Assembly (NCBI GenBank): GCA_027310365.1 | Contig: DAIDAY010000003.1 | Coordinates: 1-52,927, forward strand | Length of the DNA stretch: 52,927 nt | Source: a bacterium | GTDB taxonomy: Bacteria; Patescibacteriota; Minisyncoccia; UBA6257; GWB1-50-10 | Direction of reading: 5' to 3' | The notes under the pieces: model-generated | What the model was told of the DNA's origin: nothing | What the model saw: the letters and a program-made list of their open reading frames with translations, nothing else | Databases searched by the model: none | Shown: positions 16,098 to 52,927 of the stretch, piece by piece | How positions within the stretch are numbered: the stretch's first letter is position 1 | How the letters are laid out: every line of letters starts with the position of its first letter | Made by a program: the position numbers and the translations under genes

Positions 16098-17548
16098 TTT
16101 TCCGCGACACTCTTCAAAACCCGCCCGGCGAACTGCGGCCGCACCATTCCTCTTTCCATGATTATCCGGCCGTTTACGACGACGTACCACGGCTTCCCGC
16201 CTTTGAACACATTTATGTCGGCGAAATATCCCTCTTTGATCATTCCGCGCCTTGTGATGCCGTATTTCCTTGCCGGAAGAGCGGTGATTTTTTCGACGGA
16301 ACTTTCGGAAGAAAGAATTGTTGGAAAAAGCGATGCATTTTCCTCCTCCGCGCGGTGATAGTGGGCGGAGAGGAGCGCGTGCTTGCTCTTCATGAGTTCT
16401 TTGAGCGCTTCATCGCTGACCGACGGCGAAAAGAATCCTCCCCGCATCCGGGAAAGGATTGCGAGTTGGAAAAGAGTCTTCCCCAGAGAAAGTTCTTGGG
16501 AAGCGGCGACATCCGCAAGGCGCTTGCCTTCCAAAAATCGTAGTGGCTTCGGCATCGAAGCGACAACGATATTTTCCAAATTCAGCGTATCCAGGTAGGC
16601 AATGATTCTTTCCTGAAGATGCCGCGTTTTCGCGGCCGCAAGAACATCTTTCAACACTCCGCTCGCGATCCACGGCGGCAGAAAATCGTGCGCGGCCATC
16701 TTGATGACTGGTTCGGGAAAAACGTCGAAATGCAGGTGCTTCTCGGCGGCGTTTTCCTCGATATCTTTGGCTGCCTTCAAATATTCATACCGCACTTCTT
16801 CGAGTGGCTGGAAGTGATTGATCTCCGCGTTGAGATTGTGCGCGGCGGCGATGTCATAAATTTCCGCGAGCGATTCCTTCACCTTTCTTTCATCGCGGAG
16901 ATGGAACGTGAAAACATTCCTGAAACGGCCCGCAGCGTTCAAAACCCGGAGTATCTCTTGCCGGTTTACGCCGGAAAGATACGGTTCCGAAAGATCGAAC
17001 GCGGCGCCGAACGCTCCCTCCCGGATCGACTGGGACAAAACCCTTCCGGCGCTTTCCGTTTCCCCGATTGTTAAATCTCTCCCAAACCCTTCCATAAAAG
17101 CGCTTCGGAGTGTCGCATAGCCGACGAGTGTCCCGAAATTGATTCCCACTCCTCTCTTTTCCAACGCGGAAAGCAGTTCCCTCACCGACTGCCAATTCAC
17201 ATTCCACCGGAGGGAATACCGATCCCTCAAAAAAGCAGTCGTCCCGAAGAAAATCGGGGCGAGCGACAAGCCGTTCCCGCCAGCAATCGCGGTTGTGATG
17301 CCCTTGCGGATGAGGCGGGTTGAGAAGATGTCGTCGAATATCCCCCCTTCCTCCCCGGCGTCGAAATTAATCTCGATGAATCCGGGTGTCACGACCATCC
17401 CCTTTGCATCGATGATGTTCTTTCCGTATTTCCTCCCCGGCTTCGCGAAGCCGACGATGGCATCGCCCCTTACCAAAACGTCAAATTCCTCGGGCCCCGA
17501 TCCGTCTCCTTTGTGGACCAAACCGTTTTTGATGATAAGTTCGTTCAT
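16094..17548 (-). CDS. Amidohydrolase-superfamily protein related to N-acyl-D-amino-acid deacylase, probably lacking several metal ligands
   Basis: MNELIIKNGLVHKGDGSGPEEFDVLVRGDAIVGF, VVTPGFIEI, LSLAPI, ITALPARKYGITRRGMIKEGYFADINVF; canonical HxH replaced. Confidence 0.8.
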   Translation of the reverse strand: MNELIIKNGLVHKGDGSGPEEFDVLVRGDAIVGFAKPGRKYGKNIIDAKGMVVTPGFIEINFDAGEEGGIFDDIFSTRLIRKGITTAIAGGNGLSLAPIFFGTTAFLRDRYSLRWNVNWQSVRELLSALEKRGVGINFGTLVGYATLRSAFMEGFGRDLTIGETESAGRVLSQSIREGAFGAAFDLSEPYLSGVNRQEILRVLNAAGRFRNVFTFHLRDERKVKESLAEIYDIAAAHNLNAEINHFQPLEEVRYEYLKAAKDIEENAAEKHLHFDVFPEPVIKMAAHDFLPPWIASGVLKDVLAAAKTRHLQERIIAYLDTLNLENIVVASMPKPLRFLEGKRLADVAASQELSLGKTLFQLAILSRMRGGFFSPSVSDEALKELMKSKHALLSAHYHRAEEENASLFPTILSSESSVEKITALPARKYGITRRGMIKEGYFADINVFKGGKPWYVVVNGRIIMERGMVRPQFAGRVLKSVAEK

Positions 17549-17653
17549 CCTATGAGAAATAAACGTACCATCGCGGCTTCTTGAATATCCATACCTTAGG
17601 AAAAATCATTTTAGCTTCTATCACGGAGTATCTGTTCATTTCCCATGGGATTC
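17546..17653 (-). repeat. Element A1: inverted-repeat spacer from mraY stop to amidohydrolase start
   Basis: Left arm CATCCTATGAGAAATAAAC; reverse complement of right arm GAATCCCATGGGAAATGAAC. Confidence 0.75.
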
Positions 17654-18698
17654 ACGCAAAGTGCGCCAAGAAAAAGATAACGAGACCGAAAGCCGCGGCC
17701 ATGGCGCTTATGATCCAAAACCGCATCGTAATCTGACTTTCGGGCCAGCCAAGCCCCTGAAAATGATGGTGGATCGGCGCCGAAAGAAAAACTTTTTTCT
17801 TCCGCAATTTCTTGCTCGCCACCTGGATGATGACCGAACCGGACTCGACGAGGAAAGTGAAGGCGAAAAACGGCAGAAAGAGCGACGTGTCGGTTGTGAG
17901 CGCGATAACCCCCAGCGTAATGCCGAGAGACATCGAACCCGTGTCACCCATGAAAAATTTCGCCGGATGGATATTGAACCACAAAAATGCGAGAAGGGCA
18001 CCGATGATTGCGGCAATCATCGCGGCCAAGTCGTATTTATGGAGCGCGAAGGCGACGACATCAAGCGCCGCAAAGGAAAAGAGCGAAACGCCCCCGAGAA
18101 GGCCATCCAAACCATCCGTTTCGTTCGCTGAAAAGGCCGTCGCGACGATCACAAAAATGAAAAACGGGATGTACCACCATCCGAAATCGAGGGGGCCGAT
18201 GAACGGGAAATACACCGTATGCCAGCCGAGGCGAAAATAAAACCACCAGGCCCCAAGGACGGCTGCGAGGGTGTAGAGTATAAGCTTATGCTTTATTTTG
18301 AGACCGCCGCCGTGGGGGCCGATGCCTTTGATTCCCATTACATCGTCGAAGAGACCGATGAGCGCGGCAAATAAGAGCGCGAAGAGCGGAACGTATGTTT
18401 CTGATCGACTGACGAAGTTCAAATAACTGGAGAAACCGTCGAAGATGTTCCCCAAAATCAGGAATATGACGGCAAGTCCGATGACCGTCGCCCAAATGAT
18501 GATTCCGCCCATGGTCGGCGTCGAGGATTTATCCTTGTGATACTGGTAAAAAACGGGAGCGCTCTTTTCATCCCTGATGTTGTTTTTCCTCAGGTTGAAT
18601 TTTTGGAGGAAGGAGAAAACAAACGGCGTAATAATGAGTGCGGTCGTGAATGCTAACGCAAAAATCATGAGCACCCTCGTCGCGGAGAATACCGTCAT
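17652..18698 (-). CDS. mraY: Phospho-N-acetylmuramoyl-pentapeptide-transferase
   Basis: STPTMGGIIIW, LFDDVMGI, NETDGLDGLLGG, FMGDTGSMSLG, HHHFQGLGWPESQITMRFW. Confidence 0.96.
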   Translation of the reverse strand: MTVFSATRVLMIFALAFTTALIITPFVFSFLQKFNLRKNNIRDEKSAPVFYQYHKDKSSTPTMGGIIIWATVIGLAVIFLILGNIFDGFSSYLNFVSRSETYVPLFALLFAALIGLFDDVMGIKGIGPHGGGLKIKHKLILYTLAAVLGAWWFYFRLGWHTVYFPFIGPLDFGWWYIPFFIFVIVATAFSANETDGLDGLLGGVSLFSFAALDVVAFALHKYDLAAMIAAIIGALLAFLWFNIHPAKFFMGDTGSMSLGITLGVIALTTDTSLFLPFFAFTFLVESGSVIIQVASKKLRKKKVFLSAPIHHHFQGLGWPESQITMRFWIISAMAAAFGLVIFFLAHFA

Positions 18699-21864: not shown

Positions 21865-22872
21865 CTAGCCATGGCGAACCTCGATAACATCCCCGTCTTG
21901 AACGATATAATCCTTCCCCTCCAGTTTCAGCCATCCCCTCTGCTTCGCCTGCGTCCAGCCTCCCGCCGCGATGAGTTTTTGCCAGTTCACCACTTCCGCC
22001 CGGATGAATCTGTGCTCGAAATCTGTATGGATGACGCCCGCCGACTGCGGCGCTTTCGTCCCTTTCTCGATCGTCCACGCCCGCGTTTCGTCCTCCCCGG
22101 TCGTGAAGAAACTAATGAGATTCAAAATGGAGTAGGCGGCCTTGATCAAGTTGGGAACCGCATCGGTTTCGCTCAAATCCGCGATCAAATACTCGAATCC
22201 CATCTTCCTGATTTTTTCTTTCACGTCTTCTTGCACATCCTCCGGCTTCCCGTTCAAGAGGAATATCTGCGGCTTCGCGGTCAAAAGTTGAAGCTCCCCG
22301 ATTATTTTCTCGTTCTTCAGGGAAGTGAGGAGTTCGCCCTTCCCGAGCATCTCCTTTGCTTTTTTCAAAACCTCCAGATCAATCTTCGCCTCGCCTGTCT
22401 GCCCTGAGTTCGCCGAACGGGTCTCCGTCTCAAATTTCCTCAATCTCTTCTCGATGGTATCCAAATCCTTGAAGATGAGCTCCGCTTCGATCGTATCGAT
22501 ATCGCGGACGGGGTTCACGTTTCCCTCCACATGGACAATGTCGCCGTTCTCGAAACATCGCACGATGTGCGTTATCGCCTGGACGTTCCGGATGTGCGAC
22601 AAGAATTGATTTCCCAATCCCTCACCCTTGTATGCGCCTTTCACCAACCCTGCGATGTCGTAGAATTCGACGACGGCCGGGATTTTCTTTTTCGAATGCG
22701 TGAGATCAGCGAGCTTGTCGACCCGCTCGTCCGGAACGGGAACAACCCCCACGTTGGGATCGATCGTCGCGAACGGGTAATTCGCGATGTGCACCTCCTG
22801 GCTCGTTATGATTTTGAAAAGAGTGCTCTTTCCAACATTGGGTAAGCCGACTATTCCTACTTCTAATTTCAT
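21865..22872 (-). CDS. ychF: Redox-regulated ATPase YchF (Obg family)
   Basis: VGIVGLPNVGKSTLF, YPFATIDPNVGVVPVPDERVDKL, GLVKGAYKGEGLGNQFLSHIR, C-terminal TGS-like domain. Confidence 0.95.
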   Translation of the reverse strand: MKLEVGIVGLPNVGKSTLFKIITSQEVHIANYPFATIDPNVGVVPVPDERVDKLADLTHSKKKIPAVVEFYDIAGLVKGAYKGEGLGNQFLSHIRNVQAITHIVRCFENGDIVHVEGNVNPVRDIDTIEAELIFKDLDTIEKRLRKFETETRSANSGQTGEAKIDLEVLKKAKEMLGKGELLTSLKNEKIIGELQLLTAKPQIFLLNGKPEDVQEDVKEKIRKMGFEYLIADLSETDAVPNLIKAAYSILNLISFFTTGEDETRAWTIEKGTKAPQSAGVIHTDFEHRFIRAEVVNWQKLIAAGGWTQAKQRGWLKLEGKDYIVQDGDVIEVRHG

Positions 22873-22989
22873 CCCGTTAGAAATAAGACACAGACACGAA
22901 GAGTATGCCGTATCTTCTCTCCGACCATTATCGTTAATTTTACGCTTGTGGAATTACTCCAACGGTGTCTGTGATTTCGAATGGGATTC
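22870..22989 (-). repeat. Element A2: inverted-repeat ending on ychF start codon
   Basis: CATCCCGTTAGAAATAAGACACAGACAC vs reverse complement of right arm GAATCCCATTCGAAATCACAGACAC. Confidence 0.8.
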
Positions 22990-23245
22990 ATATGTCCTTT
23001 TCAACAATTTTACCTCGTGAGGAGCAAAATGCCCAGAGTGTTCTCCCCGTGTTGGGATGAATATCCGAACGGATGCGGACGCAGACCTTAATACCTCGTA
23101 CGGTTCTCTTGAAAATGGATTTAAACTGAAGTGCGGGGTTTTCTCCCCCAGCGAAGGCAAGAAAGATCCTGCTTGGTTTTATAGGCAGGAGAGCGTTGTT
23201 CGCAAACGACCCGATATCAAACATTCCGGAACTAATATGGAATCC

Positions 23246-23358
23246 GCCTCAAAAATCAGTAGGTACTGAATTTTGAGGCGACGGAGTGAAGCTCCGCATA
23301 TTCCGCTGCGGATGACGATGAGCGATGATGGAGGCCCTCCGGGCGAGAGTCGGGGGGA
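23246..23358. repeat. Element D1 (triple hairpin) overlapping the 3' end of the NUDIX gene
   Basis: GCCTCAAAAATCAGTAGGTACTGAATTTTGAGGC + GACGGAGTGAAGCTCCGCATATTCCGCTGCGGATGACGATGAGCGATGATGGA; first ~87 nt identical to D2. Confidence 0.9.
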
Positions 23359-28139: not shown

Positions 28140-28388
28140 GCCTCGTAGTACAACCGCAAGCTATTTGTTGTTTGAATAATAAACCTTTGATTTCTTTTCT
28201 TTGCCACCCCCCCGCCCGGAAAGCCCCGCCGCAGTGCGACAGGAATGAACGGATGGCATCCCGAATCTCGTATTCCGCTTCCGGGAAGCTCCCGTGTAGG
28301 GGGCGGAGAGCTCTTCGCCGTACACTGTTCCATCCTCGCATACACGCCTTTGGCGACATCATTCGCAGTTGTACTACGAGGCATGAAT
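28137..28388 (-). repeat. Large palindrome flush with the tmk start codon, enclosing element E1
   Basis: CATGCCTCGTAGTACAACCGC (28137-) and GCAGTTGTACTACGAGGCATG (-28385), one mismatch in 21. Confidence 0.85.
28206..28320 (+). repeat. Element E1 within the tmk upstream palindrome
   Basis: CAGGAATGAACGGATGGCATCCCGAATCTCGTATTCCGCTTCCGGGAAGCTCCCGTGT (28240-28297). Confidence 0.85.
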
Positions 28389-29984: not shown

Positions 29985-30138
29985 TTTTTTGTGGAAACTG
30001 CCGAGCAGACGATAGCCAGGAGCTCCTCATGCTGGCTTTTCAGCCTCACGAGTTCGCCGAGGGTGGGCATTCCTTTGACACCCCGCCCCAACCAGCCGCA
30101 TATCGTGGGAGAGCTCACTTTGGAGAAGTCCCGAACTC

Positions 30139-30252
30139 GCCTCAAAAATCAGTAGGTACTGAATTTTGAGGCGACGGAGTGAAGCTCCGCATATTCCGCT
30201 GCGGATGACGATGAGCGATGATGGAAGCTTCTCTGGGCGAGAGCCGGGGGGA
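30139..30252. repeat. Element D2 immediately downstream of tsaC
   Basis: Same ~87-nt block as D1, then related GGGCGAGAGCCGGGGGGA. Confidence 0.9.
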
Positions 30253-30255
30253 CGC

Positions 30256-30837
30256 TTACGAAAACTTATAGGCGCCTTGGCGCAGGATTTCAATTTTGCC
30301 TTCCTCCAACTTTATTACAGTCGAGGATTTTGATCGCAAGGTTCCACCATCAACGTAGAAGCCGACCCGATCACCAAAATACTTTTTTGCTTCTTGGATA
30401 TTCTTTGCCGGCTTGCCATTTTCTGGGTTGGCGCTTGGCGCAACAAGCGGCCCCGATTTTTTCAGAAATTTCCGAAGCCACTCTGGACGCGGGCACCGGA
30501 AAGCGAGACTGGCGCCTCCTCTCTTCAAGTAACCAAATTTCTTTCCCCCGACGGGCAAAACGACACTCACCGGTCCCGGCCAGATTTTTCTCAGGATCCT
30601 GCGATCCGCAGCAGTCAGGTGAACGTTGAATTTTCCGAGGTCGCGCGGCGAGGAAACGACGATGATAAAAGGCTTTTTCCGATTTCTCCCTTTCAATCGG
30701 TAAATACCGGAAACTGCTTTTTCTGAAAATGCCGATCCGACGACGCCGTATAAAGTATCCGTCGGCATGACGCCAAAGGCGCCACCACGCAAGACGAGCA
30801 CCACGTGGTTACTAAACTCCTTCGGGAATGATTTCAT
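30256..30837 (-). CDS. tsaC: L-threonylcarbamoyladenylate synthase (Sua5/YciO/YrdC family)
   Basis: GGAFGVMPTDTLYGVVGSAF, LKGRNRKKPFIIVV, PGPVSVVLP, ASLAFRCPRPEWLRKFL, GPLVAPSANPENGKPAKN. Confidence 0.9.
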   Translation of the reverse strand: MKSFPKEFSNHVVLVLRGGAFGVMPTDTLYGVVGSAFSEKAVSGIYRLKGRNRKKPFIIVVSSPRDLGKFNVHLTAADRRILRKIWPGPVSVVLPVGGKKFGYLKRGGASLAFRCPRPEWLRKFLKKSGPLVAPSANPENGKPAKNIQEAKKYFGDRVGFYVDGGTLRSKSSTVIKLEEGKIEILRQGAYKFS

Positions 30838-31297
30838 TTTTCTTCACGAACAACACCTTAAAGATAAAAAAGGAGATCGCCGCCAATGCAAGGCCACCGG
30901 CGATATCGGCGGGAGAGTCCGCGCCAACCATAATCAAACCCGCCGCATTGAGAAGAGAAAGGAGGGTAAAAAACATACCCCACTTTTTCCGGAAAATCCA
31001 CAATGCAAACGATATCGTGAAAAAGAAAGCGGCGGAGGCTGAAGGAAAACCAGTGCGGCCGGCGATCACGTCCGCAAGGGGAAAAAGAATGAAGCGCGAA
31101 AGAATACCAATGAAAATAATCTGCAAAAATGCGAGCGTTTTATCTCTTAACCCCTTTTTCTTGACTACGAAAAGAAGAACGCCGATTCCCATAAGGTACG
31201 GGAGATAGTACCCGAAAACGCTGCCGATAAAACTCAGAAGAGCGGACCCTGCCGCTAATCCGCGGAGCCATGAGAAAATTTCTTCGTTGAGATTCAT
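30812..31297 (-). CDS. PAP2-like membrane protein, probably catalytically degenerate
   Basis: GRTGFPSASAAFFF at the PSGH position; VGADSPADIAGG at the motif 3 position; multipass. Confidence 0.6.
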   Translation of the reverse strand: MNLNEEIFSWLRGLAAGSALLSFIGSVFGYYLPYLMGIGVLLFVVKKKGLRDKTLAFLQIIFIGILSRFILFPLADVIAGRTGFPSASAAFFFTISFALWIFRKKWGMFFTLLSLLNAAGLIMVGADSPADIAGGLALAAISFFIFKVLFVKKNEIIPEGV

Positions 31298-31416
31298 CCC
31301 GTTAGAAATAGTACGCCTACATGCCGCTTGATCTGCGTACCTTGTTCTTGACTCCTTCCCTTAATCTTTTACTCACGTTTTTATTATGATTTGCGCACGC
31401 GATTCTAACGGGATTC
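31295..31416 (-). repeat. Element A3: inverted-repeat ending on PAP2-like start codon
   Basis: CATCCCGTTAGAAATA vs reverse complement of right arm GAATCCCGTTAGAATC. Confidence 0.75.
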
Positions 31417-43725: not shown

Positions 43726-44322
43726 TTAGCGCGGATACCGCTTAAACCAAACGTTCAGTTTTACCGCCAGCATATCGATGATGTCCTCCACCCCCGGCAA
43801 GCGCTTCGCGGCGCGGACGCTTTCCGGCGGCAATTCTTTTATCTTCAACCCCAAGAGTTCCGCCAACACGAGGGATTCAAATCTGAACCCCCGGCCATCC
43901 CGGGAAAGAAGACGGAAAATCTTCGCGGATGCCTCCTCGCTGAAACAGAGAAGCCCGCCGCGGGCGGCGACGATATCATAGCCTTCCTTGAAAGAGCGGA
44001 TAATGCCGTTGAATTTTTCGATTGACGCTCCTTCTCCATCCTCAAGAAGGAGGTGGTAGCTTCCCTTTGCTCCCAGCATTCCCGCCTTCACGGCATAGCT
44101 TTTTTTCCTCCCCTCCCGGCCATTCACGATCCTCAGGGAAGGAAGAAAGGCGCCTATTTTCTGAAGCATTTCAGCCGTTCCATCGCCGGAATTGTTATTC
44201 GCCACGACAATTTCAAAAGAACAGCCAAGAGATTTGAGGCGGCGATCGGCGTCGAAAAGCAGAAGCGGCAGCTGCTTGTCCTCGCCGGCAACGGGTATGA
44301 CAATCGATAGGAAGGGTTTCAT
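43726..44322 (-). CDS. Family 2 glycosyltransferase-like protein
   Basis: FLSIVIPVAGEDKQLPLLLFDADRRL, EIVVANNNSGDGTAEML, KSYAVKAGMLGAKGSYHLLLEDGEG. Confidence 0.75.
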   Translation of the reverse strand: MKPFLSIVIPVAGEDKQLPLLLFDADRRLKSLGCSFEIVVANNNSGDGTAEMLQKIGAFLPSLRIVNGREGRKKSYAVKAGMLGAKGSYHLLLEDGEGASIEKFNGIIRSFKEGYDIVAARGGLLCFSEEASAKIFRLLSRDGRGFRFESLVLAELLGLKIKELPPESVRAAKRLPGVEDIIDMLAVKLNVWFKRYPR

Positions 44323-44438
44323 TCCGTTAGAAGCAGAACACGAACGCACTTGGCGTTTCCGTATTCTCCCCGCTCTGTTTTTCCTGACCTTGTTTTTGGT
44401 ATTATCACCTGAATATGTGTTTGTGGCTTCTCACGAGC
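44320..44438 (-). repeat. Element A4: inverted-repeat ending on glycosyltransferase start codon
   Basis: CATTCCGTTAGAAGCAGAACAC vs reverse complement of right arm GAGCTCGTGAGAAGCCACAAACAC; interior shared with A5. Confidence 0.75.
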
Positions 44439-49547: not shown

Positions 49548-49665
49548 CCCCCCCGCCCGTTCATTCCCGCCGCAGGTATGGCAGGAATGAACGGATGGCA
49601 TCCCGAATCTCGTATTCCGCTTCCGGGAAGCTCCCGTGTTTGAGGGCGGAGAGCTTCACTCCGGT
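49548..49665 (+). repeat. Element E2
   Basis: Identical 58-nt block at 49583-49640 plus related flanks (CCCCCCCGCCCG..., GGGCGGAGAGCT). Confidence 0.85.
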
Positions 49666-49994
49666 CACTAATCAGTTTATCGGCATTTTGATCGGAGTAA
49701 CAATGCAGCAATACTCGAAGTCCACCATTATCAAGTTCGTACGTGCCCCCGGAAGTATCTCAGAAACATAGCAGTCGTATCAGGATCGCTGTTGGCAGAA
49801 TTTATCCTCGACCCCTTATCGCTTTTATCGCCTTTTCCCCAATCAAGTATGGCAAAGCACAGAAAACTTTTCTCAGTGACTTACCTCTCCAGGGGGAAAT
49901 ACAATATTTACTGAGTGAACTATACAAACGTTTCAAAACCCCCGAGTGGGGAGGAGGAAATGAACACAACATCGCTTGTCTGAGTTCCAACCTT

Positions 49995-50028
49995 GCCTCA
50001 AAAATCAGCAGGTGCTGAATTTTGAGGC
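49995..50028. repeat. Element D3 hairpin with compensatory change
   Basis: GCCTCAAAAATCAGCAGGTGCTGAATTTTGAGGC. Confidence 0.85.
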
Positions 50029-50126
50029 AGCGATGCTGAGTTCGATATTTCGTGGCTTTATTCCGACGAAGAACGGGGAAGATTTTACGTTTTATATTCT
50101 CGTGAGCGAGGTGGAGATCGTGTTTC

Positions 50127-50439: not shown

Positions 50440-50880
50440 TTACACCTCGTACCTGATGAACCTTTCCACTTGGATATTTTCCCCCACTTTCGCCATCGTG
50501 CCTTTCACGAGATCGGCAACGCCCATCGACTCGTTCTTGATATACGGTTGCCCTAAGAGTTCCTCTATATTCCCCGGGTTCATTGCCGCGATTTGCATGG
50601 CGAGCTCATGAACGAGGGATTGAAAAGGTTCCGACCGCACCACGAAGTCGGTTTCTGCCCGTACCTCCATCAAAACGCCGACGCGGCCGTTGTGGACATA
50701 GGCATACACCAAACCAGCACCGGTTTTCCGCTCTTTTTTGGACTCGGCTTTCGCAAGGCCTTGTTTCCTGATGATTTCGGTCGCCCCATCGAAGTCGCCC
50801 TTCGCTTCTTCAAGCGCCCGTTTGCATTCCATGACCCCCGCCCCCGTCATTTCCCGTAATTTTATGATGGTATTATCCAT
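50440..50880 (-). CDS. tsf: Translation elongation factor Ts (short form)
   Basis: IIKLREMTGAGVMECKRALEEAKGDFDGATEIIRKQGLAKA, VGVLMEVRAETDFVVR; 146 aa. Confidence 0.94.
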   Translation of the reverse strand: MDNTIIKLREMTGAGVMECKRALEEAKGDFDGATEIIRKQGLAKAESKKERKTGAGLVYAYVHNGRVGVLMEVRAETDFVVRSEPFQSLVHELAMQIAAMNPGNIEELLGQPYIKNESMGVADLVKGTMAKVGENIQVERFIRYEV

Positions 50881-50998
50881 CCTGTGAGAAGCAGAACACG
50901 AACGCGCTCGGCGTTTCCGTATTCTCCTTGTTTTGTTTCGGCAGTCTTGTTTTTTTGTATCATTGTTCGATTCCGTGTTTGTGGTTTCTCACGGGATC
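50878..50998 (-). repeat. Element A5: inverted-repeat from rpsB stop to tsf start
   Basis: CATCCTGTGAGAAGCAGAACACGAA vs reverse complement of right arm TGATCCCGTGAGAAACCACAAACACGGAA. Confidence 0.8.
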
Positions 50999-51683
50999 AA
51001 TTTCCTCTCAACTCCGCCTTGATAGAATTCAAAATCCAATCGATGCTTGCTTTTGCGTGGTCATTTGCCAAGATCGGGTACTGAACCAAATCCGGATTGT
51101 CGTCGGTATCCATGACGGCGATAAGTGGGATGTGCATCTTATTGGCTTCGCGCACGGCAGTTTTGTGGACAACCGAGTCAATGACAAAAACGACGTCGGG
51201 AAGCTTCACGAGATTTTTCAAACCTTCGAAGTTTCTCGAGAGCTTCGAAATTTCCTTCGAAAACTGGACCTGTTCTTTCTTCGTGTATCTCTCAAGTTCT
51301 CCCGTTTCCTTCTTCGCCTTGAGATTTTCGTAGTGGTCCATCCTCTTCTTGATGACGGAGAAGTTAGTTAGCGTCCCGCCGAGCCACCGGAAATCGACGA
51401 AAGGCATTTTGAGTTCTTCCGCCATCGCTCTCATCGATTCTTTGGCTGGAGCTTGGATGCCGACAAACAAAACCAAAGCGCCGGCGCCGAGTTTTTCCTT
51501 CAAGAAGGAAACAGCTTTGTTAAAACTCTGGACGGTCGCCTCCGGATCTAAAAGCTCGACTTCGTTCCTCCGCCCGCCGATGAAATTTTTCATCTTCGGA
51601 TGTGTCTTAGTTTTCTTGTGGCCGTAAAAAATTCCGAACTGGGCCATCTCGATAATTTTGTCTTTGTTTTCAACGCTCAACAT
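50997..51683 (-). CDS. rpsB: Ribosomal protein uS2
   Basis: FGHKKTKTHPKMKNFIGGRRN-type start, PFVDFRWLGGTLTNFSVIKKRM, PDVVFVIDSVVHKTAVREANKMHIPLIAVMDTDDNPDLVQYPI. Confidence 0.96.
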   Translation of the reverse strand: MLSVENKDKIIEMAQFGIFYGHKKTKTHPKMKNFIGGRRNEVELLDPEATVQSFNKAVSFLKEKLGAGALVLFVGIQAPAKESMRAMAEELKMPFVDFRWLGGTLTNFSVIKKRMDHYENLKAKKETGELERYTKKEQVQFSKEISKLSRNFEGLKNLVKLPDVVFVIDSVVHKTAVREANKMHIPLIAVMDTDDNPDLVQYPILANDHAKASIDWILNSIKAELRGN

Positions 51684-52686: not shown

Positions 52687-52859
52687 GCAACCCTTATTCT
52701 AACCCGGATGGCGCGAGAGAGAAAGAGGCAGATGAAGAAAGTATTCCCAAACGAGTATTGCCGGAATAGGCATCATCACTGAGCCCGCCTGCGCAGGAAG
52801 GCGAAGAGGAAGAGGCGAGAAAACAACTGGGACTGGGACTGTGTTTGAATCCCGAACTC

Positions 52860-52927
52860 GCCTCAAAATTCAGTACCTACTGATTTTTGAGGCGACGGAG
52901 TGAAGCTCCGCATATTCTGCTGCGGAT
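52860..52927. repeat. Element D4 (cut by window end), hairpin in inverted orientation
   Basis: GCCTCAAAATTCAGTACCTACTGATTTTTGAGGC followed by the same GACGGAGTGAAGCTCCGCATATTCTGCTGCGGAT tail. Confidence 0.9.

Follow-up and report, generated by a model that had tools for sequence, protein, structure and literature searches.

A probable MITE-like mobile element located mostly at gene start codons in Patescibacteria

Inverted repeats at the start codons of unrelated genes

Why should the entire spacer between rpsB and tsf be an inverted repeat, and why should related repeats end on the start codons of other, unrelated genes? The question arises from a patescibacterial stretch of 52,927 nucleotides (contig DAIDAY010000003.1 of assembly GCA_027310365.1; hereafter the window), for which a sequence-only reading had offered two explanations: a cis-acting regulatory RNA, possibly of a common regulon, or a dispersed element adapted to intercistronic junctions. 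The second was right and can be sharpened, in that the start codon itself is the site and is duplicated as TGRR. The repeat is probably a MITE-like, non-autonomous mobile element of about 105-125 bp, which duplicates TGRR and inserts into (A)TGRR, mostly at the start codons of genes.

On the minus strand the spacer, which links the rpsB stop with the tsf start, reads TGATCCCGTGAGAAACCAC...CTTCTCACAGGATG, and Pfam identifies the upstream neighbour as ribosomal protein S2 and the downstream one as EF-Ts. Its arms, its extent (rpsB TGA through tsf ATG) and its coordinates (50878-50998) had been read correctly. The element copy, TCCCGTGAGAAA...CTTCTCACAGGA, occupies 50880-50996 (minus strand) between the flanks TTGA (50997-51000) and TGGA (50876-50879), and the rebuilt tsf start codon (50878-50880, minus strand) takes its A from the element's end and its TG from the right target-site copy. 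A mini-ORF of 33 codons (50862-50963, minus strand) has a stop that ends 19 nt past the A of the tsf ATG. The EF-Ts reading frame (50440-50880) is short: its 146 aa match the first 76 of the 204 positions of the EF_TS domain.

Four related elements had been described at other start codons, and all four, on the minus strand, end on an ATG at 22872, 31297, 44322 and 17548. The copy at ychF (22872-22986) has the target-site duplication TGAA/TGAA (22987-22990 and 22868-22871), its site is empty in genomes G001-G003, and its mini-ORF of 40 codons (22869-22991, minus strand) runs from the left ATG to a TGA that overlaps the ychF ATG (ATGA). The copy at a family 2 glycosyltransferase gene (44322-44438; flanks TGGA/TGAA) carries a mini-ORF of 29 codons with a GTG start (44319-44408, minus strand), the TGA of which overlaps the glycosyltransferase ATG, and the copy at an amidohydrolase-family gene (17548-17650) has the duplication TGAA/TGAA (17651-17654 and 17544-17547) and a mini-ORF of 29 codons (17550-17639, minus strand) that ends 1 nt before the amidohydrolase start. 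At the gene at 30812-31297 the element (31297-31413) is flanked by CGAA/TGAA, and the scan of the window copies for mini-ORFs found no coupled one there; such ORFs, of 29-40 codons, are present in four of the five copies. The gene names given earlier agree with Pfam for the amidohydrolase family, the family 2 glycosyltransferase, YchF, S2 and EF-Ts, whereas the gene at 30812-31297, previously called PAP2-like, matches no Pfam family.

The shared end that had been noticed before the ATG extends far beyond the window and far beyond chance: a scan of the 747 kb genome with the 14-nt right-end pattern TTTCTMAYRGGATG, allowing at most one mismatch, gave 31 matches, against 0 for the reversed control. 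Because RNAalifold found no pairs over 27 copies of this genome, the model used for whole-genome searches was built from the sequences of 27 own-genome copies without structure-based covariance. It recovered 30 full copies, of which the earlier reading had seen five. The position at start codons is consistent, with 29 of the 30 ending on the first codon of a gene in a single orientation; the remaining copy (C4:6418-6525) is inverted, flanked by ATGA...TGAA, and also lies at a gene start, that of a transporter-like gene. All copies share the terminal inverted repeats TCCCGTTAGAA...TTCTAACGGGA in the outline TCCC...GGGA, and the outer 14 pairs are 83% paired in the copies of this genome. Most copies measure 105-125 bp, short forms measure 47-91 bp, and no transposase gene lies within the element.

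The element's ends are shared across Patescibacteria, where it occurs patchily, and its interiors vary between subfamilies. A right-end scan of 84,980 species genomes returned at least 115 stretches, almost all of those listed in Patescibacteria records, and the carriers include Nomura-, Kaiser-, Zambryski-, Vogel-, Doudna-, Kerfeld- and Jorgensenbacteria, among others; one match in a Nitrospiraceae genome has the right end without a left partner. Model matches occurred in 49 of 149 relatives, and among 380 genomes sampled over the whole phylum 12 had the exact end followed by ATGRR. This distribution, together with the genome size, points to a patescibacterial origin of the window. Phage and plasmid collections held no match to the element, and viral contigs held a single unpaired end only.

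Empty sites, duplicated targets and the rebuilt start codon

Empty sites, target-site copies that covary and related copies dispersed through the genome demonstrate that the element is mobile. The clearest pair of empty and filled sites is at a pilC/gspF-like gene, where genome G002 has ggtataattaaggtaATGAAGTTC and the genome of the window (G000) has ggtataatgaaggtaATGA[110 bp]GAAGTTC. In G001 and G003, none of the 20 orthologous sites fetched from each was filled, the genes begin with a plain ATG, and the model search found zero copies in either genome. Within the genus the copy number ranges from 30 in the genome of the window and at least 25 in G002 to 2 in G005 and 0 in three others. Near-identical copies are located on unrelated genes, some copies are inserted in the regenerated ATGAA of earlier copies, and some elements are nested. 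At five loci (L302, L318, L259, L249 and L305) the elements look nested or fused, and one inner copy there has a TAAA-type flank.

The four bases that follow the A of the start codon are present on both sides of the element, and the commonest flank pair is TGAA/TGAA. Since genes often start with ATGAA, the duplication was tested on the TGGA and TGAG variants. A left TGGA was accompanied by a right TGGA in 16 of 19 copies and a left TGAG by a right TGAG in 14 of 19; the right flanks that did not match were TGAA, and crosses between TGGA and TGAG numbered 0. Matching variants without crosses establish a target-site duplication, whose length of 4 or 5 bp is indistinguishable because the flanking A is ambiguous. 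In genomes G037 and G016 a left flank of [GT]ATTTA recurs opposite a right flank of ATGAA, a pattern for which a simple target-site duplication does not account; in seven copies of these genomes (L359-L365, about 115-120 nt) the left target-site copy is replaced identically each time.

About half of the G000 sites tested are also filled in G002. Twelve alignable pairs of copies at the same site in the two genomes were no more similar to each other than random copies are, which is why simple vertical inheritance of the shared sites was rejected; these sites reflect either recurrent insertion into hot spots or gene conversion.

The genes that bear a copy at their start include rpoA, rplI, rpsE, rpsQ, rpmJ, secY, topA, eno, glyA, tsf and ychF. 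Pfam matches begin at residue 1-6 of the downstream proteins, as in L36 (1-38 of 38), L9, S17, topoisomerase and enolase, and these codons are therefore true starts, mostly of single-copy, essential genes; SecY, S5, RpoA, SHMT, ApbE, HrcA, AtpH and YchF were further downstream proteins identified by Pfam. Insertion at such a position leaves the host protein unchanged because the element ends in A: this last base and the duplicated TGRR together restore the ATG and codon 2 up to its second base. On the left side ATGRR persists after insertion, and the former start there has become the head of a new short ORF; in several copies this left ATG has been altered (to ACG, CTG and others).

In lying below about 600 bp in length and being transposase-free, with inverted-repeat ends, a target-site duplication, many dispersed copies and empty sites, the element resembles bacterial MITEs such as RUP, ERIC/RU-1 and Correia/NEMIS. 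Bacterial MITEs measure about 100-200 bp, their transcripts can form a long hairpin, and some contain short ORFs (PMC2229807, PMC10969869); those listed in one review mostly have TA at their termini and are intergenic or fused in frame to ORFs (PMC2229807). Unlike RUP, ERIC/RU-1 and Correia/NEMIS, the present element has the start codon as its site and rebuilds it, and its own ORF stops beside the rebuilt start. A text search of two reviews of bacterial MITEs found no mention of start codons (PMC2229807, PMC10969869), and the open-access literature yielded no paper on insertion at start codons or on MITEs of Patescibacteria. Rickettsia palindromic elements are likewise small, palindromic and mobile, and essential genes tolerate their ORF, but their insertions lie within genes and become a translated segment of the host protein (PMC2229807, PMC10969869), whereas here the host protein is intact and the element's ORF is separate.

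Mini-ORFs and the preference for start codons

Most copies carry a mini-ORF of 19-40 codons, with its stop at the rebuilt start or next to it. The right arm, TTTCTAACGGGATG, holds a TAA four nt before the ATG, and the adjacent frame terminates in ATGA. Among 113 non-redundant start-codon copies from many species, with dinucleotide shuffling of the element interior (200 shuffles) as the control, the TAA frame was open for a mean of 27.2 codons against 17.5 +/- 1.0 in shuffled sequences, and an ATG lay at least 8 codons upstream in this frame in 62% of copies against 23% (0 of 200 shuffles as high). The remaining two frames showed no enrichment in the same copies under the same control, nor was the TAA frame clearly enriched in 14 copies located away from start codons. 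When the stop was required to fall no more than 14 nt before or 40 nt after the host start, 25 of 28 copies in the genome of the window had an ORF of at least 23 codons, compared with 10.0 +/- 2.7 in shuffles.

In subfamily I, a frame of 35 codons is open in 20 of 20 copies. Variation was nearly equal over its codon positions (0.159/0.150/0.191) and its N/S ratio resembled that of other frames, which gives no support to a conserved function of the encoded peptide; in this subfamily it seems to be the open frame, not the peptide, that is kept. Shine-Dalgarno motifs were not clearly enriched at the starts of mini-ORFs (5/33 against 12/152).

In translationally coupled overlapping genes, which meet in TAATG or ATGA junctions, the stop lies a few nucleotides from the next start and the upstream ribosome melts the stem. 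The element resembles such pairs by position, as the upstream ORF ends within a few nucleotides of the start codon, and differs from them in that a mobile element bears the upstream ORF and distributes it among unrelated genes. The old left ATG would open, or be bypassed by, an element-borne ORF ending at TAA-CGGG-ATG or ATGA; ribosomes on this mini-ORF would enter the right arm and melt the hairpin of the two arms that may otherwise hide the AUG, then terminate beside the host AUG and re-initiate. Host genes probably stay translated through such stop-start coupling, as judged from the arrangement of the reading frames.

The association with start codons is strong, and was assessed in a tally of 124 ends that did not require a start codon at the flank. 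In 91 of the 124 right ends listed the element was followed by TGRR, and in 33 by other tetranucleotides (TAAA, TTGA, TTTA); the left end faced TGRR in only 5 cases, a bias of about 91:5 in favour of orientation towards the gene. Several copies outside start codons are flanked by TAAA/TAAA duplications, in G016, G037, G002, G059 and G137, and a TTTA/TTTA duplication occurs in G034. Start codons are strongly favoured and not obligatory. Two minimal versions of 47 nt (L373 and L378), in which the same ends surround a short hairpin, also lie off start codons, L373 with TAAA flanks.

Is this preference a property of the element, or of what survives? One answer, which we consider somewhat unlikely, is that the element has no adaptation to start codons and inserts at any T(G/A)AA-like site, its start-codon copies being the survivors in a gene-dense genome. 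The copies with TAAA, TTTA and TTGA flanks and the right ends in the tally that lack TGRR (33/124) would be expected of such an element. However, the window offers 40 intergenic ATGRR sites against about 19 start sites (by a rough gene call), and all 30 copies in its genome are at starts; the near-total bias is thus not explained by the lethality of coding insertions alone, and a choice of target, or else an advantage of coupled copies in survival, must have a part in it. The orientation towards the gene, and a mini-ORF frame clearly enriched only in start-codon copies, also argue against an element without adaptation. We see an even chance that the element is a lineage specialised on the start codon, which combines an ATGRR-favouring chemistry or target choice, a rebuilt codon and the mini-ORF as a 'passport'; if so, the mini-ORF would let even genes that are both essential and single-copy, among them rpmJ, rpoA and secY, tolerate insertion.

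The genomes of Patescibacteria are among the smallest and most gene-dense of bacteria, and insertion should usually harm them. The start codon may be a safe harbour in which selfish DNA persists where a genome has hardly any free space left. The element also provides some 30 genes per genome, many of them essential, with a hairpin and a short ORF upstream. Annotation may miss the mini-ORFs or report them as tiny hypothetical proteins, and the copies amount to a natural set of replicated constructs for the study of termination and re-initiation in uncultured bacteria.

RNA structure, candidate enzymes and other repeats

The alternative that the repeats are a family of cis-regulatory RNAs, hiding the start codons of a regulon in the outer stem and spread by duplication, is highly improbable. 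It would account for the constant position at the start codon, and the two arms can indeed pair in RNA around the AUG, as the sequence-only reading had claimed, but the same pairing is expected of transposon ends. The covariation for which it had proposed a test was found in part: the outer 14 pairs covary modestly above shuffles in the copies of this genome, whereas RNAalifold gave 0 consensus pairs over 27 of them, and an Rfam search of the window matched tRNA only and not the element. The arms also seem to co-evolve by subfamily, which is expected for transposase-bound ends and for a hairpin alike. In 156 element sequences the right arm often reads NNC-GCG-NNC-T, with the two triplets equal in 83 against 26 expected, and in the right-arm types listed, as read from the list itself, the left arm carries the matching complement. 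The stem triplet is often repeated in the bulge (NNC-GCG-NNC) and changes jointly between subfamilies (ATC, TCC, ACC, AAC, TAC).

Against regulatory RNA stand, in addition, the target-site duplications and empty sites, the inverted and non-start copies, and the patchy presence within one genus, in which the same genes of sister species are free of the element. Phylum-wide, a sample of 109 downstream proteins matched 103 Pfam families, none of them with more than three members; no common gene set was found among these genes, and the regulon was rejected because of this spread. As the main explanation, regulatory RNA is mostly refuted.

A mobile element of this kind calls attention to the enzyme that moves it, and among the fetched loci neither a transposase with these ends nor a long, autonomous element bearing them was found. 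DDE_Tnp_1 was present in 1 of 12 element-rich genomes and IS1595-type transposases in 0 of 12, and both were rejected as mobilisers because most rich carriers lack them. The absence of a resident DDE_Tnp_1 from most carriers would suit a cassette moved by site-specific recombination, of the tyrosine-recombinase type, in which TGRR would be the crossover overlap and not a staggered-cut DDE duplication. The orientation bias with an asymmetric core, the restriction of most flanks to TGRR-like tetranucleotides and the donor-like left flank of G037 and G016, [GT]ATTTA, are consistent with this mechanism; no recombinase is linked to the element, however, and we regard it as unlikely.

Y1_Tnp genes were commoner in carriers (23/49 against 22/100; odds ratio 3.1, p = 0.002), and the element, as a hairpin with a bulge, could be taken for a REP-like sequence moved by a resident Y1 transposase of the RAYT type. 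Yet 20 Y1 gene neighbourhoods from carriers contained different hairpins of their own and none of these ends, which led us to reject Y1/RAYT as the mobiliser, and several rich carriers have no Y1 gene. The element has a target-site duplication, which is not known as a feature of Y1 transposition, and this origin is very unlikely. Like REP/RAYT palindromes, the element is an imperfect palindrome dispersed in genomes, some of which possess Y1 transposases; unlike them, it has a target-site duplication, is much longer and is not linked to Y1 genes here.

Other repeats accompany the MITE-like element. In the genome of the window, a Y1 transposase gene (G000:C19:2500-4600, L389) lies amid repeated TTTACGAAGTCCAACTTCGTAA hairpins, a RAYT-like arrangement with its own palindromes. 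The window contains a second dispersed palindrome, CGCCTCAAAAATCAGTAGGTACTGAATTTTGAGGCG, at 23236-23313, 30129-30206, 49985-50062 and 52850-52927, with a 3' extension common to three of the four copies, and it looks like a separate REP-like family. A perfect direct repeat of 58 nt, CAGGAATGAACGGATGGCATCCCGAATCTC..., occurs at 28240-28297 and 49582-49639, 21 kb apart, and is likely a recent repeat or a mobile fragment.
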